Positions 29,869 to 52,468 of a DNA stretch of 55,390 bases are shown piece after piece. Where the stretch lies: contig JAJFLC010000014.1 in the NCBI GenBank assembly GCA_021772895.1, positions 1 through 55,390 on the forward strand, read 5' to 3'. How positions within the stretch are numbered: position 1 is the first letter of the stretch; each line of letters opens with the position of its first letter. Under the pieces are notes generated by a model. That model was not told the DNA's origin. It saw only the letters and a list, made by a program, of their open reading frames with translations, and did no database searches. The stretch is from Mariprofundaceae bacterium. GTDB taxonomy: Bacteria > Pseudomonadota > Zetaproteobacteria > Mariprofundales > Mariprofundaceae. Both the position numbers and the translations under genes were made by a program.

Positions 29869-29986
29869 CTTTTAGACGATTGAACAAAAAACATAGGCTC
29901 CCTGACATTGTCCATATTTATCATGCACTTCAGTATCATCTCCACGATATAAGTTTTATATCTTAAATAAAACAAAGGAGTTTGTG

Positions 29987-30835
29987 ATGAAAATATTTTT
30001 TCATGTATTGTTAGTATTGTTCACTTCTGTTCTCATCTCATGTTCAGATAAACATCTAGAAAAACACAGTGCAATTTACGTGCCTTCGGGAACCTTTATT
30101 TCGGCCAGTGAATTGAAATGGGTCAGCCCTTTTGGAAAAGCTCCCATTCAATTTGCCACGGCTTATGGCGACACATTTAAGACCCCTCATGGAACTTTTG
30201 GAAAGTTCCCAGGTAATTTCATCACCCCTGCGCATGTCCATTCGCATCCTTACCATGGCATTGTCATCTCCGGAACCATGACCAACCCTATGAAAGGAGA
30301 ATCCGGTAAACCCAAAGAGATGGATCCCGGCTCGTACTGGTATGTTCCAGCCAATGCTGTTCATCAAACCGCTTGTATTTCAAAAGAGCCCTGTGAATTT
30401 TATATGCATCAAAGCACAAACTTTGATTTCACCCCTGCAAATACAGAAACACCTATGGATCACACGGCTCAGTCTGCTGGTGTGTTTACGCCTGCCAGTG
30501 CGTTGAACTGGATCAACCCTTTTGGAAAGGCTCCCATTCAGTTTGCTGTTGCTTATGGTGATACGTTTAAAAAATCTCATGGAACCTTTGGCAAATTCCC
30601 GGGTGATTTCATTACGCCTGAGCACACCCATTCTCACAGTTATCATGCCATCGTTATTTCAGGAACCATCACAAATCCAATGACCGGGGATCCACATCAA
30701 CCTAAAAAAATGGGTCCGGGTTCTTATTGGTATGTTCCGGCCAATGCTGCACATAAAACCGCATGTATTTCAAAAGAACCTTGTGAATTTTATATGTATC
30801 AAGACACCAAGTTTGATTTTCTGCCTGTGAAGTGA
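29987..30835 (+). CDS. Lipoprotein with two tandem DUF4437-like cupin domains
   Basis: About 282 residues from ATG 29987 (ribosome site AAAGGAG, 6 nt away). A lipoprotein signal ends in VLISC. Two nearly identical domains follow (about 35-150 and 165-280), each with FGKAPIQFA.AYGDTFK, HGTFGKFPG, FITP.H.HSH.YH.IVISGT, PGSYWYVPANA.H.TACISKEPCEFYM. The HSH...H pattern is a cupin metal site like that of DUF4437. The recent internal duplication is obvious even at DNA level. The role is unknown; a periplasmic metal-dependent sensor or enzyme is possible. A hairpin terminator follows. Confidence 0.82.
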   Translation: MKIFFHVLLVLFTSVLISCSDKHLEKHSAIYVPSGTFISASELKWVSPFGKAPIQFATAYGDTFKTPHGTFGKFPGNFITPAHVHSHPYHGIVISGTMTNPMKGESGKPKEMDPGSYWYVPANAVHQTACISKEPCEFYMHQSTNFDFTPANTETPMDHTAQSAGVFTPASALNWINPFGKAPIQFAVAYGDTFKKSHGTFGKFPGDFITPEHTHSHSYHAIVISGTITNPMTGDPHQPKKMGPGSYWYVPANAAHKTACISKEPCEFYMYQDTKFDFLPVK

Positions 30836-33130: not shown

Positions 33131-33646
33131 TTACGCTATAGCTTCCACCTTATCTTTAAGGTCGTTCATTGTGCTCTTCGCAATTTTCACAGCATTTACA
33201 ATATCTATGATACTTTCCACATTCAGATCATCTATAGCCTCCAGATCACTTTGCAGCTTCTCGACTCCGGCCTGAAACTCCGTAAAAAGTTCAAGTGTTT
33301 TGGCTGCATTCGCTGCCAACATTGGCAATAACAGCTCCTTCTGCCCAGTTTCAGCCAGCTCAGCGGCCTGTTTAAAGGTTTCTCCCGCCACATCAAGCTT
33401 GCCAACTAACGTGCCTAGCTTACCAATTCCATCATCGATTAAGTCATCAGTTGCAGTATCCAATACCTCGCCAGCACGCGAAACAAGGTCAGCAAAGGTG
33501 CTATCTGAGCGGAAATCATCGACTTTTTGCAATGCTGAGTTGACTGCATTAATATTATTCCTACGCATAGCACCCATGACACCTGTGATCAGCAGCTCAA
33601 GCTCTGCGCTCTCTTTCATTTTTCGTTGTGTATCTGTTAATGCCAT
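33131..33646 (-). CDS. Helical protein of unknown function, last gene of the 12-gene operon
   Basis: A 171-residue soluble protein that is almost wholly helical, with heptad-like runs (AELELLITGVMGAMRRNN; AETFKQAAELAETGQKELLLPML; EKLQSDLEAIDDLNVESIID). No signal peptide and no family recognised. Its ATG follows the stop of the lipoprotein gene with no gap, and both share an amphipathic helical character, so they may form one helical complex at the membrane (inference). Confidence 0.75.
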   Translation of the reverse strand: MALTDTQRKMKESAELELLITGVMGAMRRNNINAVNSALQKVDDFRSDSTFADLVSRAGEVLDTATDDLIDDGIGKLGTLVGKLDVAGETFKQAAELAETGQKELLLPMLAANAAKTLELFTEFQAGVEKLQSDLEAIDDLNVESIIDIVNAVKIAKSTMNDLKDKVEAIA

Positions 33647-34906
33647 TTATTTATCCTCCGCCTTAAGTTTTTCCCGAAGCTCACTTACAAGCGTTTTAAG
33701 GTTACCAACGCTCATGCTCTGACATTGTTGAAATTTCATGCCACCACATTTTTCTAATATCCCGGCGATCTTCTGATGCTCCACACGCCACTGTTTCACA
33801 GCCTTTACTATCATGCGTGCATGACTCATTCTTCGAGAAAAGCGCCGCTTTATTTCTTTTTTATCCGCTTCAAACTTCAACGCAACAGGCTCCACCTGCT
33901 GCATCATTCTGTTCAAATCTGCCACCGTCTGTATATCTCTGGCAGCAAAACAGCTCTTTTGCTGTTTACCGCCCCCATCTACACAAAAACCTTTTTTGGC
34001 ATCAAAGCGAGCCATATGTTTTTTAACCTTGAAAAAAAGTTCGTCACGCATGATGTCGATTTTATTATAAAATCCGATGGTGTGTATGCCTGCATCATCT
34101 CTTAAATATGCAATCGCTTTCACTTCAAGCCCTGTGACAATTTTGTAGTAAGGGCCATTAATGTCATAGATAGCAATCACCACATCTGCCAACGCATTGA
34201 CAGCCGGTTGTGCTGCCCTTGTGGCTGTTTCGAGTGAATCCTGCGCTTCTTTTCTTACATGTAGCTCACCCACTAACTTCAAAGCTTGCGCCACACTGCC
34301 GGTAACCAGCCCGGTTCCAAGACCACCCAACGAGGCAAATTCGTTAACCGTGCCAATCAATGCACCTGCAGCATCGCTTCCGTTTTCACCCGCCTCAGCA
34401 AGACTCGCCAACTGATCTGAATACTCTACCGCCTTTTGCAGTGTGCTTTTAACAATCTGATCATAGGCTGTTATTTTTTGTTTTTGTTTGTCCAGCTTAT
34501 CTTTCTTTTCAAGCAGTGCCGTCTTCAGGTCTTTCTTTTTGGCTCGGTGTGCTTCGTTCGCCAGCTTTTTCAAACGCGTTGAAATACTGACAAACTCAGA
34601 TGCAGCCGCCTTTTGTTCCATTGAAATTGACGTAGCTAATTTTGCTGTTTGCTCAGCAAAAGGTTTAACATTGGGTGTCGCACAACCGAACAATAGAAAC
34701 ACTAAACCAACCATGAGACAGTGTTGCAACAAACGCTGTTGATACAAAGGGCATAGAGAATGCCCCGGATGCACAGGCACACTCACAGGAACGATGGAAA
34801 TACCGGCAGAGTCGAATTCTTCTGCGTCTACTTTCGTAAACAGACTTGATTTAAAACCGATTTCACGCAGTTTTTTAGATATACTTAAAATGCTATACGA
34901 TATCAT
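33647..34906 (-). CDS. Putative lipoprotein with helical body and unusual N-terminal extension
   Basis: 419 residues. A hydrophobic segment CLMVGLVFLLFGC (63-75) ends in a lipobox-like LFGC with Cys75, but 60-plus residues precede it, far longer than a normal lipoprotein n-region. The ATG at 34906 has an excellent ribosome site (AGGAGGAAG), while the internal Met65 has none, so the long form looks intended. The body is helical with charged coiled-coil-like stretches (AHRAKKKDLKTALLEKKDKL) and a small-residue segment ASLGGLGTGLVTGSVA. Three later cysteine-containing loops (FCVDGGG, SCFAAR, KCGGMKFQQC) could be disulfide-bonded. No family recognised. Confidence 0.75.
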   Translation of the reverse strand: MISYSILSISKKLREIGFKSSLFTKVDAEEFDSAGISIVPVSVPVHPGHSLCPLYQQRLLQHCLMVGLVFLLFGCATPNVKPFAEQTAKLATSISMEQKAAASEFVSISTRLKKLANEAHRAKKKDLKTALLEKKDKLDKQKQKITAYDQIVKSTLQKAVEYSDQLASLAEAGENGSDAAGALIGTVNEFASLGGLGTGLVTGSVAQALKLVGELHVRKEAQDSLETATRAAQPAVNALADVVIAIYDINGPYYKIVTGLEVKAIAYLRDDAGIHTIGFYNKIDIMRDELFFKVKKHMARFDAKKGFCVDGGGKQQKSCFAARDIQTVADLNRMMQQVEPVALKFEADKKEIKRRFSRRMSHARMIVKAVKQWRVEHQKIAGILEKCGGMKFQQCQSMSVGNLKTLVSELREKLKAEDK

Positions 34907-34924: not shown

Positions 34925-35623
34925 CTACCCACTAATACTGCCAAGCTGTAAAACACCCAGAACCGGATCCCAGGTTACACTCGTATCCGCATCAATTGTG
35001 TGAGCCCACAAAAGATCAGTTCCCTGCAATACACGAACCTCACGCTTTGTCTGAACCTCAGAGACTGACTCCAACAAAATTTTAGCTTTATTGAGCACAA
35101 TCTCTGCATAATCAGCTTCTGTTCCTCCGCCATAGACTGAAGCACCGCGATCATTTGGATTTGACTCTTTGTATTTATGTCCAACGCTGAACCCAACCAC
35201 ACCACCTTGTGGAAAAAAGCGTTGTATACTTTCACTTAAAATACCGGCCAGTTGTGCTTGACTGTTTTCATCCCTGATTCGAGTCGCATGCCATGGATTA
35301 CTGGCAAACAGCGGTTCAAGAAGAACCGCCGGCATATCAGTATAACGAAGGTTATAGTCCCCAAGACCATTGTAGCCGCCTACCACCACACCCCGGTCAC
35401 CGCCAAGAGAAACATCCAAACCTCTTGAGACTGCACCTGCATACCAACGTCCCCAATTGATACTTGTTTGTGAAGCATTTGCTCCGGTTACAACCATTGA
35501 ATAACCTGCTTCGACATTGGAACTGCTATTAAAATGGTGTTCCACATAAGCAATGCATTGATCTTCATTTGCTTTCGCCTGACGATCATTATAATCACCC
35601 TGATAAAATCGCACTTCGTACAT
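34925..35623 (-). CDS. N-acetylmuramoyl-L-alanine amidase (amidase_3)-like protein, short N-terminus
   Basis: 232 residues with the central and C-terminal signatures of zinc amidase_3 enzymes: YVEHHFNSSSN at 26-36 (family: SIHxN), and MPAVLLEPLFASNP at 97-110, with Glu103 at the catalytic position. The usual first strand with DPGHGG, carrying the first zinc His, is missing, and the ribosome site GGGGGAG fixes the start, so the zinc site looks incomplete. Residues 140-232 add a beta-rich tail unlike amidases. No signal peptide. It may bind or cut peptidoglycan or act in another way. Confidence 0.7.
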   Translation of the reverse strand: MYEVRFYQGDYNDRQAKANEDQCIAYVEHHFNSSSNVEAGYSMVVTGANASQTSINWGRWYAGAVSRGLDVSLGGDRGVVVGGYNGLGDYNLRYTDMPAVLLEPLFASNPWHATRIRDENSQAQLAGILSESIQRFFPQGGVVGFSVGHKYKESNPNDRGASVYGGGTEADYAEIVLNKAKILLESVSEVQTKREVRVLQGTDLLWAHTIDADTSVTWDPVLGVLQLGSISG

Positions 35624-35634
35624 GCCGACTCCCC

Positions 35635-36678
35635 CTATTCAGTTACAAGATCAATATTCAACAGATTGAGAACCCGCGAGAGCGAAATACCGTAAGTCCA
35701 GTTTTCCTGCGCACTACCTGTACGTAACTTCTCTTGCCAGCCACCCCACAGCAGGCCTATCGGTTGATGTTTGTTGTCATGGGTCACAATCAAACTGCCA
35801 CTATCACCATGGGTAGAAAAAGGAATACCATCATCGCCCAGAATGAGCAGGTCTGAATAGACAGAAAAATCAGCGCCATCACGATGTTCATAGCCGAAAC
35901 CAACGACCGTCCCATACCTCAATCCGGTTGTGCGGCCAACACGAAGCACCTTCTGCCCCAGAATCGACATATCATTTAGTGATATCTCTTTAACCGATCC
36001 CAGCTTGCCTACGCCCATCATCTCTGGATTGATATCATTCACATCGAAGCTGCTCTCCAACTCCACAAATGCGCAATCGACTCGAACCCAGCTGTTTTCT
36101 TCATCAACACCTGTATACCAATTTTCATCCAGCACAAACTCATGAACTGTTGTGGTTGTACCCAGATGTGTGCCCCATGGAACCGGATGATACAGTTTCT
36201 GCCCGGCTTCAATCGCCACATGTTTATTGGTCAGAAAGCCGAGCTTGTCATCACTTCTTCTTTTGGCAAAAGCGCCAAGTGTACCCATACTATAACTGCC
36301 CTCTTCACCCACCCAGTGAGCAACCTGTGAACCGGACCAGACCTGTGCATCCCAGCCACGAAGCCGCTCAGCCAGTTCCGAAGGTGAATCAGGAACCGGA
36401 TCTTCAGCTTCGGCCTTTCCCCCTTCAACCACATCCAGAGGGCACCAAAGACCACTTGGGCCTTCCAGCCGGTCAGGAATCAAGTTTGTACCTGGAATCC
36501 ATTTCGGGTTAATTTTTCTTGGCACAAACACGATAATGGCCGGTTCATTTGAAACACCAAAACCGCTTTTCTTTTTATACCCCAACGCCGTTCCTAACGT
36601 GCCGTTGATTGATTCAAGATAATCTCTGTTATGCGCACGTATTTGCATGAGATCCAATAATGATTTTGCCTGTGACAT
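35635..36678 (-). CDS. Trypsin-like serine peptidase
   Basis: 347 residues. The catalytic triad is visible: His153 (LTNKHVA), Asp201 (VDCAFVEL) and Ser293 (HGDSGSLIV). The N-terminal part (NGTLGTALGYKKK, PAIIVFVPRKI) resembles cytosolic Nal1-type trypsin-fold peptidases rather than secreted trypsins, in line with the absence of a signal peptide. It lies inside the 12-gene operon (11 and 32 bp from its neighbours), suggesting that it processes one of the large operon proteins; the target is unknown. Confidence 0.87.
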   Translation of the reverse strand: MSQAKSLLDLMQIRAHNRDYLESINGTLGTALGYKKKSGFGVSNEPAIIVFVPRKINPKWIPGTNLIPDRLEGPSGLWCPLDVVEGGKAEAEDPVPDSPSELAERLRGWDAQVWSGSQVAHWVGEEGSYSMGTLGAFAKRRSDDKLGFLTNKHVAIEAGQKLYHPVPWGTHLGTTTTVHEFVLDENWYTGVDEENSWVRVDCAFVELESSFDVNDINPEMMGVGKLGSVKEISLNDMSILGQKVLRVGRTTGLRYGTVVGFGYEHRDGADFSVYSDLLILGDDGIPFSTHGDSGSLIVTHDNKHQPIGLLWGGWQEKLRTGSAQENWTYGISLSRVLNLLNIDLVTE

Positions 36679-36710: not shown

Positions 36711-37820
36711 TTACCAAATTGGATTGAAATAGGCAGAGACTGTACGCTCTCCACCCGGTTTTTCAGCCAGCCCTAACAGCGTAAGTGTTGGCACCTGTGT
36801 TGTTTGATGCGCCCTGCCTTTGGCCAGTTTCCATGTCCTGTCCAATGTCTTCTGATCACCACCCCACGCCTGCCAAAGTGCCATGATGGCCTCCTTTTTT
36901 TTCGGAGTTCTGGCCCATCTTGAAGGTGCCATGGAGTAAAAGCCGACTGCGCCCTGAGCAGCCCATGGCCATGCATGAACAAACCCTGCTGTCGGCATCC
37001 GGTCGCTATAGAATCCACCTGAAGATATGCGAAAGGCATCGCTTACATCCATGCCAAACTGAGGGTCAGCAGAAAGCATGTTACAAACACGCTCCGGTGA
37101 TACTCTCCCATTCAAAAAACGCCAATAAAGTTTGAAACTAAAATTCTTCTTCTGTGTACTCCACTCCATGGAGAGCATGCGTGGAATGGCGATCTCAAAC
37201 AGTTGCTCCATAACATCCATTGAAGCCGATGAGAATAACGCCCCCTCACGTTCTTCATCCTGCCCGTACATCGCCATAAGCCGCTGTGCATGATGCAACC
37301 CCAGTCTGGCGTTACCGGAAGAGAAAAGATCAATGTATAATTTCACCCTTGAACCTGCCGGAGCGTGACACCCACCCAGGTAGCAACCAAATCGGCCACG
37401 TGCGGCATCAAGCTGCTGACGCCATAGTTTTAGTGGTGTGATAAAATCCTGAGCCTGTTCAACCCCTGCAATATAGCAGTTCAGACAGGATTCAAACGCA
37501 TCAATCCCAAGCTGCAATCGATGCATGGGCGATAACTCCGGCAACCCGACACAACTGGCATAGCGCAGTGTACCCGGTGAATCCGAGCGCACCGATATCT
37601 CTAACGGCCCACCACCATTGATACCGGAACCATCGCTTCGTTTTGAAACCTGCCATGCGCCGCTACTGGCATGACAGATCGAATCTACAATGCGCTTACC
37701 TTCACCACCCAGCCCATTGGCAAGCGCAAGATGATAAAGATGCCGTCTTGTCCTCTCTTCTGACAACACAGCCAGCGTCTGTTTCTGATCATCTGCAAGA
37801 GAGGGTGATGACATCTGCAT
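36711..37820 (-). CDS. Unknown enzyme-like protein, possible ABBA-fold prenyltransferase
   Basis: About 369 residues, no signal peptide. I know no firm family, but several features recall ABBA aromatic prenyltransferases of the DMATS/cyanobactin type: an N-terminal GPLEISVRS (near 72-80) followed by TLRYASCVGLPE, like the P-x-E-F-S...R-x-x-x-E-P pattern; and three strand motifs with paired basic/aromatic residues, SRVKLYI (158-164), FSFKLYW (218-224) and VSAYFNP (362-368), spaced like the diphosphate-binding repeats. This is pattern-based inference. GTG 37823 and ATG 37814 are other possible starts. It begins 4-7 bp after the 855-residue protein. Confidence 0.6.
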   Translation of the reverse strand: MQMSSPSLADDQKQTLAVLSEERTRRHLYHLALANGLGGEGKRIVDSICHASSGAWQVSKRSDGSGINGGGPLEISVRSDSPGTLRYASCVGLPELSPMHRLQLGIDAFESCLNCYIAGVEQAQDFITPLKLWRQQLDAARGRFGCYLGGCHAPAGSRVKLYIDLFSSGNARLGLHHAQRLMAMYGQDEEREGALFSSASMDVMEQLFEIAIPRMLSMEWSTQKKNFSFKLYWRFLNGRVSPERVCNMLSADPQFGMDVSDAFRISSGGFYSDRMPTAGFVHAWPWAAQGAVGFYSMAPSRWARTPKKKEAIMALWQAWGGDQKTLDRTWKLAKGRAHQTTQVPTLTLLGLAEKPGGERTVSAYFNPIW

Positions 37821-37827
37821 CACACTG

Positions 37828-40395
37828 CTAGCTCAAAGGAACCACTAGATTTCGGTCACTTTCGGTTACAAATTCGGTCTCGGTTTTGGTGCCATCCCTG
37901 AAATAAGAGACCAAACGCCACTGATATTCCAGAGATGCATCGACAGAAAGACCGATGATATGCGTTCGATCTCCAGCCTGACTCTCCGTAAACAACAGTG
38001 AATCTGTGACACCTTCACTTTCCTGAATGATCACCTCAACAGCATGCAACGTTGACCAATGTGATGCCTCAGCTAGCAGTTTGACGTTAAGCGATATCTC
38101 CTGCCCCTCTTTATCATCAACAATAATGACCCCTTTATCACTCTCGATTCGGTCAGAAAAATAGTCGCTTCCATCGGCGCGAATCACTATGATCTCATAG
38201 GTGTAGCTGGCAGGGTCTTTCAGCAGCGTACCAAATCTGATGGTTCTGCCGCGCATATCATCGGGTGTGAACACCTCCTGAAAATTCTTCCGATATCCGC
38301 TTTCACCCCTGTATTCAAGATCTACAACGGCTTCAATGATATCTTCAGCCTTCAGCGTGGGTGTCAGGCGAATACGTTTGCTGCCTTCAAACGGACTGCC
38401 CACAATCACCATGGTATCTTCTGTTTCCGTCCAGTCGCTGGTGGTCTCTACATTATCGGTCAATGAGTAGATCGCCCGCCAGCGGAATGAACGCTTCTGT
38501 CGGTCCGAAAGACGGACCTTCCAGACATCGGTTTTATGATCACCGGTGAGAAGAAATGAGTGTTCGATACTGAAATCATTGCCGGGATCATCATACTGAA
38601 TTTCAACTTCAACCTGCTGAACCACCTGAAAATCAATCGTGTTATCCGCTGCAACATTTACCGTTAACAGACCAATTTTATCCAAAGGGTTAAACACCAG
38701 CTGACGCACTCGTGTGGATTCCCACTCGCCATGTAGCACCGCATCCTTGCCCACCCACGGGCTACTGTTTTTGAAGTGTACATCCGCTTTATAACGGTAG
38801 CTCATATCCTTGCTATCATTCAGCCAGGTTGTGAACTCTTTCCGCTCCTCTGCTTCAGGTTTGAAAATATACCCGTCCACATGGTCAGGATCTTCGCCAT
38901 CAGCAAGATTGCCGGGGTATTCGGTATTAATATTAACCAGCTCAATGCCATCGTTCTCCCAGTCGCAGACCACGCCCACATCGGAGACAAGACGTTTGAA
39001 GAAATCATCATCCAGATTAATCTCAAGAATACGGCTTGAAAGGTCGTGTCCTTCAATCAGTGTGGTAAACAGACCTTGAGGCGCAGCTATTCGCTCTTCA
39101 GCAGCCTGTTTATTGTATTCAAACACACGCGTTTTCAACTCTTCCTGACGATAATACTTAAGTGAAAGTGCCACTTTAAACGGCATGACACTGCCAGTGC
39201 GCGTGTTCTCACCTCCACCTGCTGCATTGCTGCTTCCACCTGAAGGGGCTGCCTCAGGACGATCCACACTGTTACCTCCGGTTGAAGAGGTTCTGGAAGG
39301 TGCAAGACCCAGACCTCCCCTTGCTGGTGCACTTCCTGTAGCCGCTGGCGCAGTTCCTGTCGCAGGTACCGCAGGCGTGGCTGGTGGTGACCCCCCTGAT
39401 GTTGCCGGTGGCGTAGGGGTGGGTGGTCTGTTAACCGGTGTGGCTGGTGCCGGCGCCCGAGGATTTGGCGCCACATTGCTGACAGCTCCACCCATCGCAC
39501 TGGAGAGCGATGTCATCATCGCGGTAAGCGGATCAACCGTACGCGCCATGAACCCCGGTGGAGTCAACGAAGATTTGAAAAGATCTTCTGTGATTTTCGC
39601 CTTAGCCCACTCCAGTGCTGCATCAGCCTGGTTTTTTAGATCTTCATCATTGGTGAACGTGGTCACTTCAATCTTGATGGAACCATCATCCACCAGTTTC
39701 TGAAAACCAACACCCACCTCGGCGGCAAGCTGAACTGCCTTAATCTGTGCCTGCACCCCAACCTCTGCCTCAAAGTGATTGTAAATACGGGAATAGTTGG
39801 CTGTCACCTTCACATTAAATGATGGGCGCATACCCAAAAATTTCAGATCATAAATCACACCGATGAAACCAACGCCATACTTGAGTGCTTCCTCCAGAAG
39901 CGTGGCACCCTCCTGACTTAAACCCACGCCGAATGTAGCTCTGTTATTACCATAGAGAGAAGGTTTGCTCGCGCCCCATGTTGTCTCAATAATCTGCAGC
40001 CTTCCCGAAGTGGCAGTCGTCTCACCATCTTCGGACTGACTCACCATACTTAGCCTAACGGTTCCATCCTCGAACATGATCGGTGACAGTGTAACCGAGC
40101 CACCACCGGAATATTGAGCCAGCTCATTCTTAATCGCGTCCAGCTCATCCTGATCAATCGAGAGATCAACAGTAAAAGCCAGCAGGCCACCGCCAAGACT
40201 CGCCTTATCATCATCAGAGAATGCAGGATTATCGGTGATGTCGCGCGCATATTTCAGGTATACAAATTCCGGCACGCCATCGTTCATTGCCAGGCGTGGC
40301 CGTTCGGATACATAGTAAAACATATTAGGGTCAGCATGATCCCGGTAGATTTGGAGGCCTCTAAGCGGGCCGATTGGTCGATCTAAATATAACAT
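37828..40395 (-). CDS. Large beta-rich operon protein G (855 aa) with internal Pro/Ala/Gly linker
   Basis: Member of a family shared within this operon. The N-terminal module (1-300) has YRDHADPNMFYYV at 17-29, FVYLKYARD, GGGLLAFTVDL, PSLYGNNRATFGVGL at 145-159 and VIYDLKFLGMRPSF from 180. A low-complexity Pro/Ala/Gly/Ser/Thr linker spans about 317-403. After it come tandem beta-sandwich modules of about 85-100 residues with the pattern W.V.L.D...R.F.WR (for example VWKVRLSDRQKRSFRWR), each ending in a strand before the next. No signal peptide or membrane segment. The ribosome site GGGAGGAGAAGAG is strong. Function unknown; extended shape likely. Confidence 0.8.
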   Translation of the reverse strand: MLYLDRPIGPLRGLQIYRDHADPNMFYYVSERPRLAMNDGVPEFVYLKYARDITDNPAFSDDDKASLGGGLLAFTVDLSIDQDELDAIKNELAQYSGGGSVTLSPIMFEDGTVRLSMVSQSEDGETTATSGRLQIIETTWGASKPSLYGNNRATFGVGLSQEGATLLEEALKYGVGFIGVIYDLKFLGMRPSFNVKVTANYSRIYNHFEAEVGVQAQIKAVQLAAEVGVGFQKLVDDGSIKIEVTTFTNDEDLKNQADAALEWAKAKITEDLFKSSLTPPGFMARTVDPLTAMMTSLSSAMGGAVSNVAPNPRAPAPATPVNRPPTPTPPATSGGSPPATPAVPATGTAPAATGSAPARGGLGLAPSRTSSTGGNSVDRPEAAPSGGSSNAAGGGENTRTGSVMPFKVALSLKYYRQEELKTRVFEYNKQAAEERIAAPQGLFTTLIEGHDLSSRILEINLDDDFFKRLVSDVGVVCDWENDGIELVNINTEYPGNLADGEDPDHVDGYIFKPEAEERKEFTTWLNDSKDMSYRYKADVHFKNSSPWVGKDAVLHGEWESTRVRQLVFNPLDKIGLLTVNVAADNTIDFQVVQQVEVEIQYDDPGNDFSIEHSFLLTGDHKTDVWKVRLSDRQKRSFRWRAIYSLTDNVETTSDWTETEDTMVIVGSPFEGSKRIRLTPTLKAEDIIEAVVDLEYRGESGYRKNFQEVFTPDDMRGRTIRFGTLLKDPASYTYEIIVIRADGSDYFSDRIESDKGVIIVDDKEGQEISLNVKLLAEASHWSTLHAVEVIIQESEGVTDSLLFTESQAGDRTHIIGLSVDASLEYQWRLVSYFRDGTKTETEFVTESDRNLVVPLS

Positions 40396-40440: not shown

Positions 40441-42051
40441 TCACTCATGGCAGAACCCCCGGATAGCTGCCTGAAGCCCTGCCAAATCCATCGACTCTTC
40501 AGATCGACTGACGTTATGAATCGTACGTGTCGGGCTCACCATCGCAGCGCCATTAACATGTGCTGCTGATGGTGGATAACTGCCACGATATTGTGGATTG
40601 CGAAAAATAAGACGATTATTCTCTACACGAAGTCCGAGTACGCCATGCCCGCCGGTACCCCAAAGAATGCTGATATAAACAGGCAAGCCATGATTCTGAA
40701 AGTGCGACATAACATTGGTTGCAGCACCTGCGTTAGGAGCTGATGCTGAAGTTCCTCCACCAAAGTCCCACGTCCATGACTGATTGAAAATAGCATCAAG
40801 AGCCCGTTTAACTTCCGGCAGTTGCAAGCCACTACCAAGCGCTGTACCGAGCCATGTAACAAAACTGTCCCGTTCCGGGTCGTAACTTCCCGCACCGGTA
40901 TGTGCATACTGCATGAGCGCAGCCTGAATACCGCGCTCACTGTATGTACGGCCAATGACCAGTTGCCAGTTGGCTCCTGCCGCAGGCTGAGTTGTACGCC
41001 ATGTCGCCACATCAAAGGCTTCCGGATTAGCACGCATCGTGCCTCCATTGGCAAGCGTAACCGTGTGGTTCTGTCGTCGATCCAGAATATAACGACACCA
41101 GCGGGCATACTCAGCTGGATTACGCAGTGCTGTATAGGTCTGAATTGAAGTGGCAGCGCAGGTTCCCGCAGCGCCCTGATTGATCTGGCCCGGTGGATCG
41201 ATAAGCTCAACGATGGCTTCAAAAATAACTTTACTTGGCAGAAGCGGCACACGCGGGTCAAGCTGCACATCCCATAGTGCCAGAAGATGATCCAGTGTTG
41301 TTCCTTCGCTTCTCTCATCACGCCAGAAAAGTGCAGGCTCGGTCATATGTCCACCACCGGCACTTGAACCCACCGCCACGCGCAGATCGAGCAACCGTTC
41401 AAAAAGCTGCCTGCCCTCACCACCGGATCGGATAAAGAGCTGCAACATCTTGGCGCGTATCCGCGAAGAGGACTGATCCCGATAGACAGGGTGTGCTACC
41501 ATCGTCTGTAGCGCACGATGTTCGGGATCATCTCCCATCAGAGGGAAGAGAAAAATAAACATCTGCTCCCAACTGGTAAGGTGTCCCAATGCCTCACTGT
41601 CATCAAAGGCTGCTGTTGGCGTTCCGGCAACAGGTGTAATCTCAATCGATGGAACATTACGATCCTGACACGCTGTATCGGTATGACTGGTATACCCTTC
41701 CGAGCTGGAGCCGGTTGGCCTCGCTTTCACCCGGTAATAGAGAGCCCCTCTGGTGCTCTCTCCGGCAACATTTTTCATCTGTGCCCAGACCGCATCAGGC
41801 AAGGTATACTCAGCATGCCCGCCCGTAATGGTGATCGTAGTCGCAGCCACTGAGCCATCATTCGAGCCTGTGTGTGTGAAAAAACAGTTCCACATGTCAC
41901 TCGGATCACTCACCGGCCTGAACAACAGCTCGGGATATTTGGCAATCTCAAGGAATGCCTCTCCATCATTATCACTGGTAATACAGAATGTTGGTGCCGG
42001 CCCATTGGATGCCCAGACATCAAAATGTGAATGTACTCTTACCCATCTCAT
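40441..42051 (-). CDS. Papain-like cysteine peptidase-domain protein
   Basis: 536 residues. The C-terminal half shows a papain-like active site: Gln292 and Cys298 in INQGAAGTCAATS (oxyanion Gln, nucleophile Cys), His469 in TGGHGVLGL, and Asn485 in FRNPQYRG. This order (Q...C...H...N) fits clan CA peptidases such as C39-like or C58-like enzymes. The first ~130 residues are beta-rich (FEV-like strands, SDNDGEAFLEI), perhaps a recognition domain. No signal peptide. It lies between the two large paralogs E and G, so it may mature them or be an effector; neither is shown. Confidence 0.78.
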   Translation of the reverse strand: MRWVRVHSHFDVWASNGPAPTFCITSDNDGEAFLEIAKYPELLFRPVSDPSDMWNCFFTHTGSNDGSVAATTITITGGHAEYTLPDAVWAQMKNVAGESTRGALYYRVKARPTGSSSEGYTSHTDTACQDRNVPSIEITPVAGTPTAAFDDSEALGHLTSWEQMFIFLFPLMGDDPEHRALQTMVAHPVYRDQSSSRIRAKMLQLFIRSGGEGRQLFERLLDLRVAVGSSAGGGHMTEPALFWRDERSEGTTLDHLLALWDVQLDPRVPLLPSKVIFEAIVELIDPPGQINQGAAGTCAATSIQTYTALRNPAEYARWCRYILDRRQNHTVTLANGGTMRANPEAFDVATWRTTQPAAGANWQLVIGRTYSERGIQAALMQYAHTGAGSYDPERDSFVTWLGTALGSGLQLPEVKRALDAIFNQSWTWDFGGGTSASAPNAGAATNVMSHFQNHGLPVYISILWGTGGHGVLGLRVENNRLIFRNPQYRGSYPPSAAHVNGAAMVSPTRTIHNVSRSEESMDLAGLQAAIRGFCHE

Positions 42052-42104: not shown

Positions 42105-44480
42105 TCACTCAGGCACATTGCTTGTAATGTGCAGTTCGCTGCTACGCGCTGTGAATGGCCCTGAACTGTGTTCAAATCCGTCCTGCATCTCATAAACAAC
42201 GTCATAGCTATATTCACGTTTGGCAGGATCTTTGAGTTCAACATACCAGGTGTATCTGTCGCCCAGAGATGAGAACGTCGCGGTATCCTCTTTCAAAACG
42301 CCATTCTCTTCGTCCTGATAGCGCAGATTGACCAATATTTTTGCCAAATTGTTTTCAGCAAAGGCTTCACCAAATGTGGCGACATTCACCTCCATCTTCA
42401 TGGCAAAGGTTTTACCCACGACCAGTGTTGATTTATCACTGCGCTGCCAGTCAGTTTCCATCACATTGCCATCCTGAAAAATAAGCGTCTGCCTGTAGCG
42501 ATAACGCCGCAATTCAGGATCAGCCAGTTTTAGAGACCATGTTTGTGGCTTGCGCATTTCCGCTTCATCAAAATAGAAATTAGCGAATTCATGGATATCA
42601 TTACTGACATCTTCATATTCAAGATCAACAAATGCACTTGAGAGCTCACTGGTATTACCGGCGACCACCACCCTTATATTCATCCGGGTTGAAAAGGGAT
42701 CAGAAACAACCAAAAGATCGCTGTCGGTCTCATCCCATTCACCTGAATCAGGATCCGGTATAACAAATTCACCACCACTGCTTTTAAAGTACCGAGTTCG
42801 ATAATAGATCGTATCCGACCAACCTTTTTGCAACCGTAATCGATAATTTTCTCTGGCTTCAGGCGCTTTCAAAAGCACGGTGTGTGTATCAGCAAAACCG
42901 CTGTCAGCATCAATGTACATCAGCTCAACCTGAGCTTCAGCAAAGCTGTCAAAATCCAGATTTCTTGATGGTACAATTTCAAGATTCCTGTCACTGTAAA
43001 GTTCACGCGGATTCAGAACCAGTGGCCCACCACGTTGACTTTTTTCATCAACTTTCAGAAAGGGCACACTGCCGGGCAGATCATCATCGGGTTTGAATTG
43101 TACTTCCCATTTATAACGATAATCAAAGCCTGCATCCGTTTCAAAATTGGTTTCATAAATATCAGAGATATGATCTTTTTTGAGCGTAAAATCCTCCCGA
43201 TGATCGCTCTCATCACCATTCGGGCCGTAAATCACGGATGCGCCAAGCAGTTCAATGCCATCACCATCCCAATCCACGTTACTGGTAAGATCCAGTTTAA
43301 ATGCCTGAAAGAACGGATCATTCAGATCAATCGGTTCACCCACAACATTTCCCTTCTCCAACCCTGCTTTACCAAAGAGAAGACTCAGGTGAGCCTGAGG
43401 TGCAATCGTTCTCTCGACTGCCTTAACCACCGACATCTCGGCATCAAAGCTTCGAACCTCTGATTGCGTCAAATCTTTTCGGGAATATCCCGCATGCGGG
43501 TAGAGCGAGGTATGGATAGCCATGAGCACATCTTCAACATCACCGGCTGTGCCTTTACCTGCCGGATCTGTAGGACTCAGGGCTGACTCAAAAAAGTTAT
43601 CCAGCACAAGTTTCTTCAACTCATTGAGCGCCTGCGTCATCTGACTGCCACCGCCCTCATCACCCACACCGTAATCAACCGCCTCGATCTTAATCACCTG
43701 ATTCTGAACAAGTTCATCAACAACCGTTGAGACATCAGATGAGAAGAAGAGCAGATCGACTGAGAACTGCTCACTGAAATGGTGGTACACCTCTTCCCAG
43801 TTGGCAGTGACCTTCACATTGAAAGCGGGTCTTAACGCAGCAAACTTCAAATTATAGATCACGCCAATCGGCGTAATATTCTGATCATCGGCTTCAAAAG
43901 ATTTCTCCAGCAGTGTTGTCGCTTTTTTGGTAAGCCCAACTGAAAAAATCGCGCGATTATCGCCATAGAGTGAGGGCATGCCTGCGCCCAGCACTTCAGT
44001 GACCCATTCCCTGGACGGTTCGGGCTGGTCTGTAGTGGTGGTCGTTGTTCCATCATCATCGAGTGGCTGCACATCACTACGACGATCAAGCAGCATCAGT
44101 TGTACATTCCCCTCTTTCCATTGTGGTGGACTCAGCTTGACCTCTGCCATCGGATCAGTGAGCCGTCCTGTCGTACGCAACTCCTGTTCAAGTTTCTGTT
44201 TCACCTTGTCCAGAAAATCCGACTCATAACCCAGATCCACATCAAAGGCTAAAAAGCCACCGCCGGTTGGATGGTCGGCCTGACCATCGTAATCATCCAG
44301 GTCTTCCCGATACTTGATGAAGAGAAGCGCAGGTTTTTTGACCACCTCACCATCAACTTCATGTTCAACCATCGAAAATTCCGGTGCATCCGGCATGTAG
44401 TAGTATTGCAGTGGATCATTATAATCCGAATAGATTGAGACCCCTTCTATCTCATAAAAGGGTGCTTCCAGATACATCAT
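42105..44480 (-). CDS. Large beta-rich operon protein E (791 aa)
   Basis: Paralog of G and D. N-terminal module: [17 protein letters not shown] at 17-33, [36 protein letters not shown] at 169-183, then [18 protein letters not shown] from 207. A Thr-run (TTTTTT) sits in a loop near 135-140. The middle has [11 protein letters not shown], an acidic loop that could bind calcium and is matched by DWENDGIEL in G. Four or so C-terminal beta modules follow, each with a W.L.L.D...R.Y.YR core ([34 protein letters not shown]). No signal peptide. Function unknown. Confidence 0.8.
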
Positions 44481-44516: not shown

Positions 44517-46769
44517 CTATGCCGCCGGTGTTCTGGCAATCAGGAATGTGGACTTGTCGCTGGTTCCGCTCACCACAATAGGATCGCCATCAATCACGTA
44601 ATAGGTGACTTCCCAGTCATAATCCTTGACCTCGTCATCTTCGACCCGAAGCGACCATGTCTGTTTTTTCTTCTCTTCAAAGATAAAGGTGGCGGGTGAT
44701 TCCCCTTCGATTACGCTGCCCTTATAGGTCAGGTTCACCTCAACAACCGGTGCACGATCAAATTTGAGCAGTGCAGGGTTCACCGAAACATCCAGCGACG
44801 GCGGACTATCCCAGGCGACAGCAAGCGTCTGGCTGCCATCAAGCTGTTGCCAGCTGCTCTCAGCTTTGGTGCCATCTTTGTAAAGCACCAGCTTCTTCCA
44901 CTCCCACTCGCGCTTATCAGGATTGATCAGAGGCACCTTCCAGCTCCCCAGAAAGCTCTGTTTGCTAATTGAAAAATGTTTAACGGAGGTGAAATCATTG
45001 GCATCATCGGTGTAGCGGCAATCAACCACCACCTGATTAACCGAATCTATTTTTCCAGCTGCTACAATAAGCACATCGAGCAGGTCAACAAAGCTGTCAT
45101 TGACCACAATTTCACGCCCGGTGGTCTGCTCGGCATCACCCTCGACTTCACTACCGTTTTTCAGGAAGTAGGTTGCCTGATAGTCAATGGGCTGTTCGAT
45201 ATCCGTATAGAGCCAGCGTGAATAGTTACCACTGGGATTCTCTTTGGTGAGAATAATCGTAGCCGACTCTTCATCAATATCGTTCCTTCTATCTGAATAT
45301 GTAACAGTAACCTGTACCTGTTCAACAGTATCTTCCCAATCAATCTGGCCCGCCAGAACATCAACATTGAGTTCACCGGGACGTCCAACGTTGAGATTCA
45401 GGCTACGGGTTGTCTCCGGCTCCCAATCGGTGCTGATAGTAGCATCAGGTTTACTTTTAAAACCGACCTCATAACGCCAGCGATACTCCCTGCTTGCATT
45501 ATTAAGCCGGGGATTCCAATAGCCGGCGGGATCATCATCGCTTTTGAAGGTGAAACTATCATTTTTAAGTCCACCCTCACCATCATACTCCACATCCACC
45601 TTCACATACTGAACCTCGGAGAAATCGGCATATGCCTTGGCAGAGAGATCAAGTGTCTTGAAGAAATCATCTTCCAAATCCACTTCACGGACATGTTCAG
45701 CGATCTCTTCGGGTGTCATCTCACCAAAGAAACTCTCCAGCGTTGCCTGCGGGTGGATGGTCATCTCCGTTAGTCCCGTAGTCGTAATAACAAGATTTAG
45801 ATTGTTTGAGGTAATCTGATCAACCGTTTTCAGGCGGTAGACATCGGCCTCTTTCCCATAAATATCTTCCATATCAGGATAGCCGACATCCTGCGGTGTG
45901 AAACGATCAAACAGATTCTCCTGAAGCCAGCTCTGCACCGTACCCATGGCAAAGGACTCAAGCTCTTCCACATCCTCTGACTCATACTCACCACGGTCGA
46001 AATCGATATGAATATACTCCGATTTCACCAGTGTTTCAGTGTAGGTCTCATTGGTACTGAAATCATCTTCCGACCAGCCATTCTCATCATGCTCATGCTC
46101 AAGCGAAGACATGGCGTGATAGACTTCACTCACATGTCCCCAAATACGGATCGTTGCCGGTGGCAGGCGACGCATAAAGGTCAGATCATAGACCACCTGA
46201 ATGGGTGTCAGATCAATGCCACTGCCATCGGTGTTGGTCAGAGTTTTCTCAAAAAAGGTGGCGCCCGCCGGTGTAAGCGTTGCATTAAAGATCGCATTAT
46301 TGGCGCCAAACAGGCTTGGCTTGCCTTCACTTAGGGTTCCCTGAACCAGATTCGCATCATTGACCACCTGAAAATTGACTGCGCCATCCGTCCACTGCGG
46401 TGCTGCAAACTCAGCATCCGGCCCCTGATAGCTGTAGTCCGCGTCTTCAGGGTTAAGATTACGGCTCTGATTCCACTCTTTTTCGAGCATCGCCTGCAGA
46501 CGTGTCCTGGCCTCCTCTTCCTGTGTTGAAGTCATGGCAAAGACAGTATCAAGATTCACATAACCGCCGCCCATTGGCAGTTCGGGATCATCCTCCCTGT
46601 CCTGATCGGAGAATGCATATTTGGTGAGCAGAAAGATCGGACGTCCCTCTTCATTGGTGCGCACATGGGGTGCATCAGGAAAACCATAGAATTTGTATTT
46701 TACGGTGTCATCCCGGTAGACGGTAACACCGATATCCCGGTAATCGATTGAATTGGACAGTACTAACAT
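44517..46769 (-). CDS. Large beta-rich operon protein D (750 aa)
   Basis: Paralog of E and G, more diverged. N-terminal module: YRDDTVKYKFYGFPDAP at 18-34, FLLTKYAF, GGGYVNLD, PSLFGANNAIFNATL at 151-165, VVYDLTFMRRLPPATIRI from 192. A strongly acidic stretch follows (HEHDENGWSEDDFS; EYESEDVEELE). Residues ~400-750 hold at least three tandem beta modules (YWNPRLNNASREYRWR; SWKVPLINPDKREWEWK; TWSLRVEDDEVKDYDWE). No signal peptide. Preceded by ribosome site AAAAGGGGTAAG. Function unknown. Confidence 0.8.
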   Translation of the reverse strand: MLVLSNSIDYRDIGVTVYRDDTVKYKFYGFPDAPHVRTNEEGRPIFLLTKYAFSDQDREDDPELPMGGGYVNLDTVFAMTSTQEEEARTRLQAMLEKEWNQSRNLNPEDADYSYQGPDAEFAAPQWTDGAVNFQVVNDANLVQGTLSEGKPSLFGANNAIFNATLTPAGATFFEKTLTNTDGSGIDLTPIQVVYDLTFMRRLPPATIRIWGHVSEVYHAMSSLEHEHDENGWSEDDFSTNETYTETLVKSEYIHIDFDRGEYESEDVEELESFAMGTVQSWLQENLFDRFTPQDVGYPDMEDIYGKEADVYRLKTVDQITSNNLNLVITTTGLTEMTIHPQATLESFFGEMTPEEIAEHVREVDLEDDFFKTLDLSAKAYADFSEVQYVKVDVEYDGEGGLKNDSFTFKSDDDPAGYWNPRLNNASREYRWRYEVGFKSKPDATISTDWEPETTRSLNLNVGRPGELNVDVLAGQIDWEDTVEQVQVTVTYSDRRNDIDEESATIILTKENPSGNYSRWLYTDIEQPIDYQATYFLKNGSEVEGDAEQTTGREIVVNDSFVDLLDVLIVAAGKIDSVNQVVVDCRYTDDANDFTSVKHFSISKQSFLGSWKVPLINPDKREWEWKKLVLYKDGTKAESSWQQLDGSQTLAVAWDSPPSLDVSVNPALLKFDRAPVVEVNLTYKGSVIEGESPATFIFEEKKKQTWSLRVEDDEVKDYDWEVTYYVIDGDPIVVSGTSDKSTFLIARTPAA

Positions 46770-46841: not shown

Positions 46842-47678
46842 TCAACTTAAACCACTGACTTTGTTTTCCATCACCTTACCTAACCTGAAAAGTATCGGAT
46901 GCCGATATTTCAGCGGTGATGAGGTAATTTTTTCCAGGTTTGGAATGACCGGCGTCAGACACTTCACCTGTAGATCGGGTCCTGCCGGCTCCCAACATTC
47001 ACAACTGCCCATATAGGCGATTTCAACCCATGCTGATGCGAGCTGAATCATCAGTTGTTGATCCAGACATTTGGCACCTAAACCTTTTATTTGCAGACTT
47101 AACAACTTTTTTTTCCGCATGTTTTCCAATACCTTCAGTGCAACACTGTGTGGTGTAAAAACCTCACCACTATCCAGAGCCCGCTGAGTCATCCGGGTTG
47201 TTTCAGCTATCAGTTCCGGAAATATCTGCTCCGCATTGGCACTCCATTCGAATCTGTTTATTGAGGCATGGGAGCTGCATCTGCACGCAAGCTCTGTGGT
47301 CAGATATATATCACCTGGAAGAAAATCAGGGGAAGCCCTGTGCACCGAGTTGTGTGAGCCATAACCTGAGGTGCTGCCTTCTGATAATAGCTTCACCCCA
47401 TCTTCAGAGACGCTCCATATATTCACTCTGGCACTCTCCCATGGAATCAGCATGGTATTGCCCGTGCTGAACAGAGGCCCATGGAGACTCTTCTCTTGCT
47501 CTGCAAGTGAAAGGTTGATCTCACAAACAAACTGATGTGGAGCATCAGAGCCTTTTTTAAAAGCCAGTCTGGAGACATTGATGCCGCCAGCCGTCTCAAA
47601 ATAGTGGCGTTCATCTTTTTGATCATCGGGGAAAAGTCTTGACCCATTGGAGAGAGTTTCAGGCTCCAGCAGAAGCAT
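46842..47678 (-). CDS. Operon protein C (279 aa), unknown
   Basis: About 278 residues from the ATG at 47678, which overlaps the stop of gene B (TGATG), so translation is coupled. The start of the protein (SRLFPDDQKDERHYF) faintly resembles the opening of the large paralogs (D.....R.YY), suggesting a shortened relative. A Cys/Ser segment ELACRCSSHAS near 125-135 and a helical stretch (FPELIAETTRMTQRALDSGE) follow, then CLDQQ and GSCECWEPAGPD with further cysteines. No signal peptide. I cannot assign a function. Confidence 0.7.
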   Translation of the reverse strand: MLLLEPETLSNGSRLFPDDQKDERHYFETAGGINVSRLAFKKGSDAPHQFVCEINLSLAEQEKSLHGPLFSTGNTMLIPWESARVNIWSVSEDGVKLLSEGSTSGYGSHNSVHRASPDFLPGDIYLTTELACRCSSHASINRFEWSANAEQIFPELIAETTRMTQRALDSGEVFTPHSVALKVLENMRKKKLLSLQIKGLGAKCLDQQLMIQLASAWVEIAYMGSCECWEPAGPDLQVKCLTPVIPNLEKITSSPLKYRHPILFRLGKVMENKVSGLS

Positions 47679-49582
47679 CACGCATCCTCCTCAAATGAAT
47701 CAAAAAGAAGCCGCTCTTCACTGCTGAGCTTCCAATCCGAAAGAGCTGCAGGGAGTCCTGCATCACTGCTGAAATAGATTTCGGATTTCCACCTGTAAGA
47801 GAGTCCGGAAAAGAGTGTCTCCCGCCATAGTGCCCAGGATGACTCTGTTGTCTCCTGATCAAGCTTGATCAGTTCACCCTCAAATGAGTCTGTCGCATCT
47901 GATGCTTTAAGGTAAAGCAGAACAATATCTGCCGGATAAGCCTCGGAAGGTGATAATTTCAGCTCGATAAAATCGGGTGCGATCACTTGCGTCTGGTACG
48001 ATGTGATCAATATTCGTTCTTCCGGAACAGATAGCCACTGCTCGCTGCCGACAGATTCTGCTTCGAGCCCTGTGGGGGGATGAATCAAAATTCGGTAAAA
48101 ATGGTAGTAGGCCACATCCCCTTTCCGGGTGGTGATCTCCCGTTTAGGCGTCTCTCTGCTTAATATAACGGTTGTCTGATGACCCTGATCATTCGGATCG
48201 GTTCTTTCACATAGCTGAACCTCAACATCTCCGATTGAATCAAACGCACTCTCCTGCACCTGAATCGATAGCTGTTGAATGCCAAGCAGAGATGGCGAAA
48301 TATGGATAAAAGGATCTTTACTCTCTTTTATACCTGTTCTTATCGGCTGCGGCGGCCAGCCACCCCCGGCTGGCGCATGATAAAACGCCTCAATGGCGTA
48401 ATAGTAGAAAAAGGGTGAACCATCCGGTAAAACAGCAATATTCCTTGCGCCTATACCCTCAATATCATTAAGGCAGAGTTCATGGTCCTCCCACTCCTGG
48501 GATGCGCCGTAGTAGTGGAGTTTGAGAATGACTTTTTTAAACTCGCCACTCTCAAAAGAGAAACTGTTAACCACGTCGATGGGTATCAGAGAAAACGGCT
48601 CAGGCACTGGAACTTTTGAAAACAGATCGGATTTCACATCATCACTTAAACCACGCCAGAATGCTGAAAAGTTCCAGATGGAGTGCCATGACCTGTGATC
48701 AATCCTGGGTGCCCGCAGATTCCAGCTGACAGTGACGTCCAGAGAGATATCTTCACCATCAACGGAGAGTTGCTCCAGCCCTTGCCACAATGCAACCGGC
48801 TGAAGCTCATACATAGCACCACCATTCTGTTTCCAGGCCATGCTGGAGAGGCGTAACAGAAGCTCATCGATCACATGACTATCTGTAGCCTGCTCAATCG
48901 GTCTGATCTCTGTTTCTGATTCAGCCTGAGTGATCCAGCGATGATGTATCTCATCGACTGTTTCAACAGGCAGAGCTGGAACATCAATAGCATTCAAATC
49001 CATCATGGCATCACCAGGCAGGCCAAGCTCTGTCATGTAGTGTTGAAAAAGATCGTACGGTTTGAAACTGAACGTTGCGGGAAAAGCTCCCCGAAAACCA
49101 CTGTATCGAACCTCAACCTCAACCTGTAGCGGCTCAACGGCTGTGTCACTATTGTTAAGCAGCTCTTCGAGGATAAGAGAACTGTTTCTGTCCAGCTCTA
49201 TGGTTACTTTTGAAAGTAAATCATCATCAATCTGAAAATCCGCCCACTCCGTTTCAACAGTCCGGTTATCATCCACGTCTGGAACTGTCATGCTGATACG
49301 AACTGAGCCCGACTCAAATGGAACATGACTGACCACACTCTGATCTGAGATCAGCTCCGACAACGCATCTGTTTCAGGGTATTGAAAAGCCAGCTGTAGT
49401 GTTAAAAAACTCCGCTCTCTCTCTTCGCCTGCATAGAGAAGCAGCATAAATTGCGGATTCTCATCTGCATCGGTTTTCAGTTCAACAGCACTCGGCAGAA
49501 GATATAGCCTGTCTAACTGCTGATGAGCCCGAAAGCCAATCAGCTTATCATCCAGCAGAAGCGTATCTTGCAGGCTCAGCAC
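47678..49582 (-). CDS. Large beta-rich operon protein B (634 aa)
   Basis: A diverged member of the same family. LDRLYLLPSAVEL and FMLLLYAGEE (23-53) correspond to the FYYxPxxPxL and LLKY blocks of the paralogs; VTIELDRNSSLILEELL and LQVEVEVRYSGFRGAFP (126-168) correspond to the FxVGLxxxGATLLE and VIYDLxFLxxRP blocks. Only two or three C-terminal beta modules follow, ending with RYRWKS-like SYRWKSEIYFS. The GTG start at 49582 lies 5 bp after the stop of gene A without a clear ribosome site, consistent with coupling. No signal peptide. Function unknown. Confidence 0.75.
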   Translation of the reverse strand: MLSLQDTLLLDDKLIGFRAHQQLDRLYLLPSAVELKTDADENPQFMLLLYAGEERERSFLTLQLAFQYPETDALSELISDQSVVSHVPFESGSVRISMTVPDVDDNRTVETEWADFQIDDDLLSKVTIELDRNSSLILEELLNNSDTAVEPLQVEVEVRYSGFRGAFPATFSFKPYDLFQHYMTELGLPGDAMMDLNAIDVPALPVETVDEIHHRWITQAESETEIRPIEQATDSHVIDELLLRLSSMAWKQNGGAMYELQPVALWQGLEQLSVDGEDISLDVTVSWNLRAPRIDHRSWHSIWNFSAFWRGLSDDVKSDLFSKVPVPEPFSLIPIDVVNSFSFESGEFKKVILKLHYYGASQEWEDHELCLNDIEGIGARNIAVLPDGSPFFYYYAIEAFYHAPAGGGWPPQPIRTGIKESKDPFIHISPSLLGIQQLSIQVQESAFDSIGDVEVQLCERTDPNDQGHQTTVILSRETPKREITTRKGDVAYYHFYRILIHPPTGLEAESVGSEQWLSVPEERILITSYQTQVIAPDFIELKLSPSEAYPADIVLLYLKASDATDSFEGELIKLDQETTESSWALWRETLFSGLSYRWKSEIYFSSDAGLPAALSDWKLSSEERLLFDSFEEDA

Positions 49583-52209: not shown

Positions 52210-52468
52210 ATTGTAAATTCTTTCTAAACATGAGACCCCTCCCATGTGTAGACAAAGATTAAACCTTCACATCATAAACAAACATCCCATAAATATGGGA
52301 TGCAAAAACAGGCGTGATAATCTAAGCAGGTCACGTCAATAGCTTTGAAATTAAGTTTTTTTGTTTTTCAGACAATATAAACGGCTTTATGAATCTAAGT
52401 TCAAAAGTCAAAGTTCGATTTGGAAAAAAGATGCTTTACCTATCTCAGAACGCCATCTTTTAACTAAC
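52210..52468. promoter_or_regulatory. Probable promoter region of the 12-gene operon
   Basis: This 259-bp AT-rich gap separates the operon start from the kinase stop. It should hold the operon promoter. On the minus strand a TATGAT lies just downstream of a 20-bp palindrome, with no good -35 box; TTGACG and TTGACT occur further upstream without well-spaced partners. No gene was seen. Confidence 0.5.
52283..52302. promoter_or_regulatory. 20-bp palindrome, operator or terminator
   Basis: CATCCCATAAATATGGGATG: a perfect 9-bp inverted repeat around AA, about 75 bp upstream of the first operon gene. It could be the operator of a dimeric regulator. On the minus strand it is followed by TTTGTTTATG, so a weak terminator for the kinase transcript is the alternative. 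Confidence 0.5.

Follow-up and report, generated by a model that had tools for sequence, protein, structure and literature searches.

We find that the gene at 36711-37823 on the minus strand of the window (the whole 55,390-nucleotide stretch of Mariprofundaceae DNA analysed here) very probably encodes an ABBA-type prenyltransferase that is a regular member of a repeat-protein operon. Enzymes of this kind are already known; the branch to which the encoded protein (hereafter called P0001) belongs, its operon and a fusion of a relative to a cyclase are undescribed in the family libraries and papers that we searched. Fold, family, residues and synteny of P0001 were computed, and the fusion, which is from Paracoccus, was likewise established by computation; we infer the catalytic activity, prenyl donor and acceptor of P0001. 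The DMATS-like aromatic prenyltransferases gain an unannotated branch beyond the recognised natural-product clusters, one that travels with large repeat proteins in distant bacteria and an archaeon. Moreover, the recurrent pairing of this branch with a cyclase-like enzyme, and one natural fusion of the two, lead to a specific biochemical prediction.

The gene and its operon

The original prediction placed a possible ABBA-type prenyltransferase here. The open reading frame is real, but its strand has to be specified as minus: the plus strand across 36711-37823 is crowded with stops. From a GTG start the frame covers 36711-37823 and encodes 370 residues; from an ATG start it covers 36711-37820 and encodes 369. 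The motifs quoted in support of the prediction are all present (GPLEIS at 71-76; LRY, within LRYA at 85-88; VKLYI with K160-Y162; FKLYW with K230-Y232; VSAYF with Y364), although the last reads S-A-Y and not K/A-x-Y. We dropped the count of K/A-x-Y motifs as evidence, as three or more [KA]xY occur in 14% of shuffled copies of P0001. The assignment goes beyond chance because of homology, fold and synteny, not because of these motifs. Read directly, the sequence lacks the NDxxD/DDxxD Mg-diphosphate motif, a difference from UbiA-type enzymes.

P0001 is encoded in an operon of twelve minus-strand genes running from 52245 down to 33131:

49588-52245, minus: F1, an 885-residue conserved protein, first gene of the operon; its homologs head related loci
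47678-49582, minus: R4, 634 residues, a shorter, diverged paralog of R1-R3 (alignment A1; blastp clustering across loci)
46842-47681, minus: a 279-residue operon protein, listed by position only, without Pfam match or cluster partner
44517-46769, minus: R3, 750 residues, paralog of R1 and R2 (alignment A2); homologs lie upstream of R2 in related loci
42105-44480, minus: R2, 791 residues, with an N-terminal alpha/beta domain and tandem immunoglobulin/FN3-like domains (AlphaFold2 model)
40441-42051, minus: a 536-residue protein with a putative papain-like C-terminal half (GTCAATS, then GGHG, then RNPQY)
37828-40395, minus: R1, an 855-residue repeat protein, paralog of R2 and R3; same-position homologs in related loci
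36711-37823, minus: P0001, predicted DMATS-like ABBA (PT-barrel) aromatic prenyltransferase (profile, AlphaFold2, Foldseek and residue alignment)
35635-36678, minus: NAL1-like serine peptidase, 347 residues (Pfam PF25819, E = 2e-57; PF25608, E = 2.3e-27)
34925-35623, minus: N-acetylmuramoyl-L-alanine amidase (Amidase_3), 232 residues (Pfam PF01520, E = 7.1e-12)
33647-34906, minus: a 419-residue helical protein without curated family; it has a lipoprotein-like signal (LVFLLFGC) at an internal position, and a hydrophobic stretch or hairpin rich in Gly and Ala
33131-33646, minus: a 171-residue helical protein without curated family, last gene of the operon (sequence as read)

R1 lies directly upstream of P0001 with a gap of 4 bp. 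Several other neighbours overlap or are at most 5 bp apart, and the largest intergenic gap is 72 bp, so that there is no room between the operon genes for a precursor gene of the cyanobactin type. The operon has no NRPS genes either, in agreement with the original prediction, and its description as non-biosynthetic is correct for the window: PKS, NRPS, oxidase and transporter genes are all missing from it.

The repeat proteins R1-R3 share 27-31% mutual identity (alignment A2). The AlphaFold2 model of R2 (pLDDT 78, pTM 0.40) retrieved only generic Ig/FN3 proteins in a Foldseek search. The C-terminal half of the 536-residue protein appears to resemble a papain-fold cysteine peptidase; since it has no Pfam or PDB match, this label is one that we infer from its motifs. 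In Nannocystis (L018:12221-16228) R1 is fused to a papain-like segment that corresponds to this separate gene of the window (phmmer E = 5.9e-37). In the 419-residue helical protein the lipoprotein-like signal falls inside the called open reading frame, and the true start may lie further in. Elsewhere in the window, on the plus strand at 29984-30835, a lipoprotein consists of two near-identical cupin-like halves, an internal duplication.

Family and fold

As a single sequence P0001 matches nothing in Pfam, NCBIfam or the PDB, even at E = 10; for sequence similarity to the cyanobactin prenyltransferases (LynF/TruF), the comparison covered was this single-sequence NCBIfam search (E ≤ 10). Single-sequence searches likewise gave no relatives among 78 genomes of its own class, nor in genome contigs, viral contigs and plasmids. 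Short matches in 398 genomes of the phylum (E about 0.001-0.01) were treated as chance.

The neighbouring repeat proteins led further. No homologs of R1-R3 were found elsewhere in the class, and an alignment search with these proteins gave 16 genome loci with homologs, in an archaeon, Alphaproteobacteria, Nitrotoga, Hydrogenophaga, Lysobacter, Nannocystis, Nonomuraea, Acidobacteria, Kuenenia and Bacteroidota. In L009, L010, L011, L014, L015, L017, L022 and L024, the genes directly 3' of the last repeat protein are all of one family, and plasmid searches added Calothrix (L028) and Azospirillum (L036), where a gene of this family again adjoins a repeat protein. A profile of the family built without P0001 recovers P0001 at E = 1.6e-8 among 1134 open reading frames, the next unrelated frame scoring 1.1. 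Because the profile of its relatives finds it and it holds the same operon position, P0001 is a diverged member of the family, and in related repeat-protein operons a P0001 homolog is the usual occupant of the slot after the last repeat protein. We set aside a 304-residue protein that follows a repeat gene in Pararhizobium (L029), in which no prenyltransferase was detectable.

Among PDB entries, a nine-member profile of the P0001 family (A3) matches aromatic prenyltransferases of the DMATS type (6zrx, 1.1e-5; 6zry, 1.3e-5; 4yl7, which is MpnD, 1.2e-3), with NphB a weak, non-significant match. Six of the nine members also match Pfam Trp_DMAT (PF11991) weakly, at best with E = 0.005; a PF11991 search of two genomes was uninformative because its control signal was absent.

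The same alignment served as input for an AlphaFold2 model of P0001 (pTM 0.71, mean pLDDT 66, residues 1-70 poorly modelled). In the model, ten strands follow one another as five pairs with helices between them, which is the order of the ABBA barrel. Foldseek returned 70 PDB matches at E ≤ 0.001, and all 50 of those listed are ABBA prenyltransferases. TM-scores were 0.5-0.6; the best match, the S. coelicolor 5-DMATS complex, had E = 5.8e-10, probability 1.0 and TM-scores of 0.59-0.61. A predicted fold other than an alpha-beta-beta-alpha barrel had been named as grounds for abandoning the prenyltransferase call; the predicted fold is such a barrel, and the call is now supported by profile, model, structural matches and residue alignment together.

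Predicted active site

The original prediction also hinged on basic diphosphate-binding residues in the barrel, and the alignment places these in P0001. FgaPT2 binds diphosphate through Arg100, Lys187 and Lys259 (PMC11443524), and R86, K160 and K230 of P0001 align with this Arg/Lys/Lys set in the alignment to MpnD and S. coelicolor DMATS (for the roles see also PMC4786772). DMATS enzymes carry a catalytic Glu near the first strand (Glu89 in both FgaPT2 and MpnD, Glu106 in TleC), and its counterpart in P0001 is E74. This residue is the same in all family members and, by position counted along the profile alignment, corresponds to MpnD Glu89, which has itself been paired with Glu106, the catalytic residue of TleC (PMC4786772). 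The tyrosines of the KxY strands and the shield in MpnD are matched in the alignment by Y162, Y232, Y295 and Y364. For R378 of TleC, a fourth Arg that binds phosphate, P0001 has no exact equivalent: R359 lies one residue off. By sequence the active site of P0001 is apparently complete. In its operon relatives K230 is replaced by Glu, and Y364 by Gly or another residue; because P0001 has kept both, its site is more canonical than theirs.

These losses raise the question of whether P0001 might be a non-catalytic ABBA-fold protein, a structural or regulatory member of its operon. PatF sets a precedent, having the ABBA fold and being thought inactive as a prenyltransferase after loss of a key Lys (PMC3668578), and in the operon relatives neither the second Lys nor the last shield Tyr remains. 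However, the Lys lost in PatF is invariant in the P0001 family, and P0001 itself retains the catalytic Glu, three basic residues and four tyrosines. We consider a non-catalytic role unlikely.

A cyclase-like partner in related loci

Seven loci (L009, L010, L011, L022, L024, L028 and L036) have, after the prenyltransferase gene, a gene whose family is marked by an invariant DADDT motif. Class II terpene cyclases carry a DxDD motif, which DADDT resembles. The cyclase label on these proteins rests on the motif, because the family has no match in the PDB and compares with the cyclase half of the Paracoccus fusion at an hhalign probability of 1.9%. At one of the seven, L036:8222-16026 (plasmid AZO_p5 of Azospirillum lipoferum 4B), three helical proteins, one of them annotated as HBL/NHE enterotoxin family, directly precede the repeat protein, the prenyltransferase and the DADDT gene.

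The Paracoccus fusion is encoded on a plasmid of Paracoccus sp. SMMA_5 (L030:26704-28797), next to a tyrosinase gene, and has 698 residues. Its N-terminal half matches squalene-hopene-type cyclases in the PDB (8pak, 3.4e-6; 6ij1, 1e-5; MstE, 0.005), and its C-terminal half matches the prenyltransferase profile, with the motifs KLY, KIYW and VYL. A Deinococcus sp. QL22 plasmid (L035:14737-16902) has a cyclase-prenyltransferase pair, the prenyltransferase part split over two annotated genes, with no visible repeat proteins nearby. The Paracoccus fusion suggests prenylation followed by ring closure as the simplest reading. No member of either cyclase type was detected in the window genome, in searches of which the first lacked a positive control.

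A variable enzyme slot

Which enzymes accompany the repeat proteins differs from locus to locus. Caspase-domain (C14) genes occupy the slot after R1 in three loci, as a tandem pair in L020 (12567-14447) and in L021 (14695-16593) and singly in L022 (14587-15492). The Paracoccus cluster includes phospholipase D-like and tyrosinase genes, and is immediately preceded by EAD1-trypsin, EAD1 and STAND-like NTPase genes (L030:5411-10295). Such variation resembles, by analogy, that of conflict systems with exchangeable effectors (PMC7159879). An operon in which the peptidase, caspase-domain, tyrosinase and prenyltransferase genes vary appears to be undescribed in the papers that we searched.

The prenyltransferase might be an effector with targets outside the operon, in a host, a rival or a phage, and belong to a set of interchangeable enzymes (caspase-like, NAL1/trypsin-like, amidase, phospholipase D-like and tyrosinase). 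The changing occupants of the slot would fit, as would the NAL1 peptidase and amidase of the window operon and the EAD1-trypsin and STAND-like NTPase neighbours of the Paracoccus cluster. P0001 has no visible secretion signal, however, and we know of no effector with an ABBA fold, which also counts against such a role. Prenyltransferases are likewise not mentioned in the 2020 survey of conflict systems (PMC7159879). On balance we regard an effector function as unlikely.

Proposed mechanism and acceptor

For P0001 as an active prenyltransferase, a prenyl diphosphate (DMAPP, GPP or FPP) most likely sits inside the barrel, bound by R86, K160 and K230. Ionisation would give a prenyl cation shielded by Y162, Y232, Y295 and Y364, and E74 would assist the attack on this cation by the aromatic ring of the acceptor, an indole or a phenol. 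The relatives usually have a cyclase-like enzyme, encoded by the 3' gene or in one case fused, which could then turn the prenyl chain, once transferred, into rings; the window operon would operate without this ring-closure step.

With biosynthetic and precursor genes missing from the operon, we expect the acceptor to be one of the operon's own proteins, an aromatic metabolite of common occurrence or a foreign target. An operon of Ig-like repeat proteins that recurs in distant bacteria and an archaeon likely points to a target other than a classical natural product. That the acceptor is a Tyr or Trp side chain of an operon-encoded protein is a tentative proposal, to which we give somewhat less than an even chance; if it is right, P0001 would carry out a form of protein lipidation that is new. 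We rate a small aromatic metabolite about as probable.

One candidate site on the repeat proteins was rejected. R1 of the window has a Pro/Ala/Ser/Thr/Gly-rich linker, and long low-complexity linkers rich in Gly, Thr, Pro and Ser are frequent in R1 proteins adjoining prenyltransferase genes (the window, L010, L014 and L015; L017 and L024 are exceptions). These linkers are almost free of Tyr and Trp, and the extension is missing in two loci.

P0001 may instead make a small, meroterpenoid-like molecule by prenylating Trp, Tyr, indole or 4-hydroxybenzoate; the relatives' partner would cyclise the chain, and the repeat proteins would bind, export or sense the product. The solved enzymes among the Foldseek matches listed act on small molecules, judging by their titles; the Paracoccus cyclase domain is like MstE and other small squalene-hopene-type cyclases; and the Deinococcus pair occurs apart from visible repeat proteins. 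Against this, the window operon has no other biosynthetic gene and the association with large repeat proteins is conserved. We hold a small-molecule product to be a credible but minority outcome; it would represent a compact two-gene route to meroterpenoids.

Protein prenylation could take a more elaborate form, in which the ABBA prenyltransferase, joined in many relatives by a class-II-type cyclase, would attach isoprenoids to Tyr or Trp residues of the immunoglobulin-repeat proteins encoded alongside it in the operon, and the isoprenoids would then be cyclised. We think this full scheme rather improbable. If true, it would be a post-translational, meroterpenoid-like modification of a sort not known for large proteins.

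Comparison with known systems

MstE and its single-domain relatives among the squalene-hopene-type cyclases are similar to the Paracoccus fusion over its N-terminal half. No homolog of these cyclases was detected in the window genome, and only the motif links them to the DADDT proteins found at other loci. The cyanobactin prenyltransferases (LynF, TruF and PatF), a family that modifies peptide side chains, share the ABBA fold with P0001. Their systems differ from the P0001 operon, which has neither a precursor nor other cyanobactin genes, and none of the three is among the 50 Foldseek matches listed. The phenol and phenazine prenyltransferases (NphB, CloQ and EpzP) also have the fold in common with P0001, but their similarity to it is below that of the DMATS group, EpzP coming lower down among the matches listed.

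Closest are the bacterial DMATS-type indole prenyltransferases (S. coelicolor 5-DMATS, 6zrx/6zrz; MpnD, 4yl7; TleC; IptA; PriB; CymD), which share with P0001 the ten-stranded ABBA barrel, the Glu, the basic residues and the Tyr shield. Identity to them is about 15%, and P0001 itself has no Pfam-level match. P0001 belongs to a repeat-protein operon and not to a natural-product cluster.
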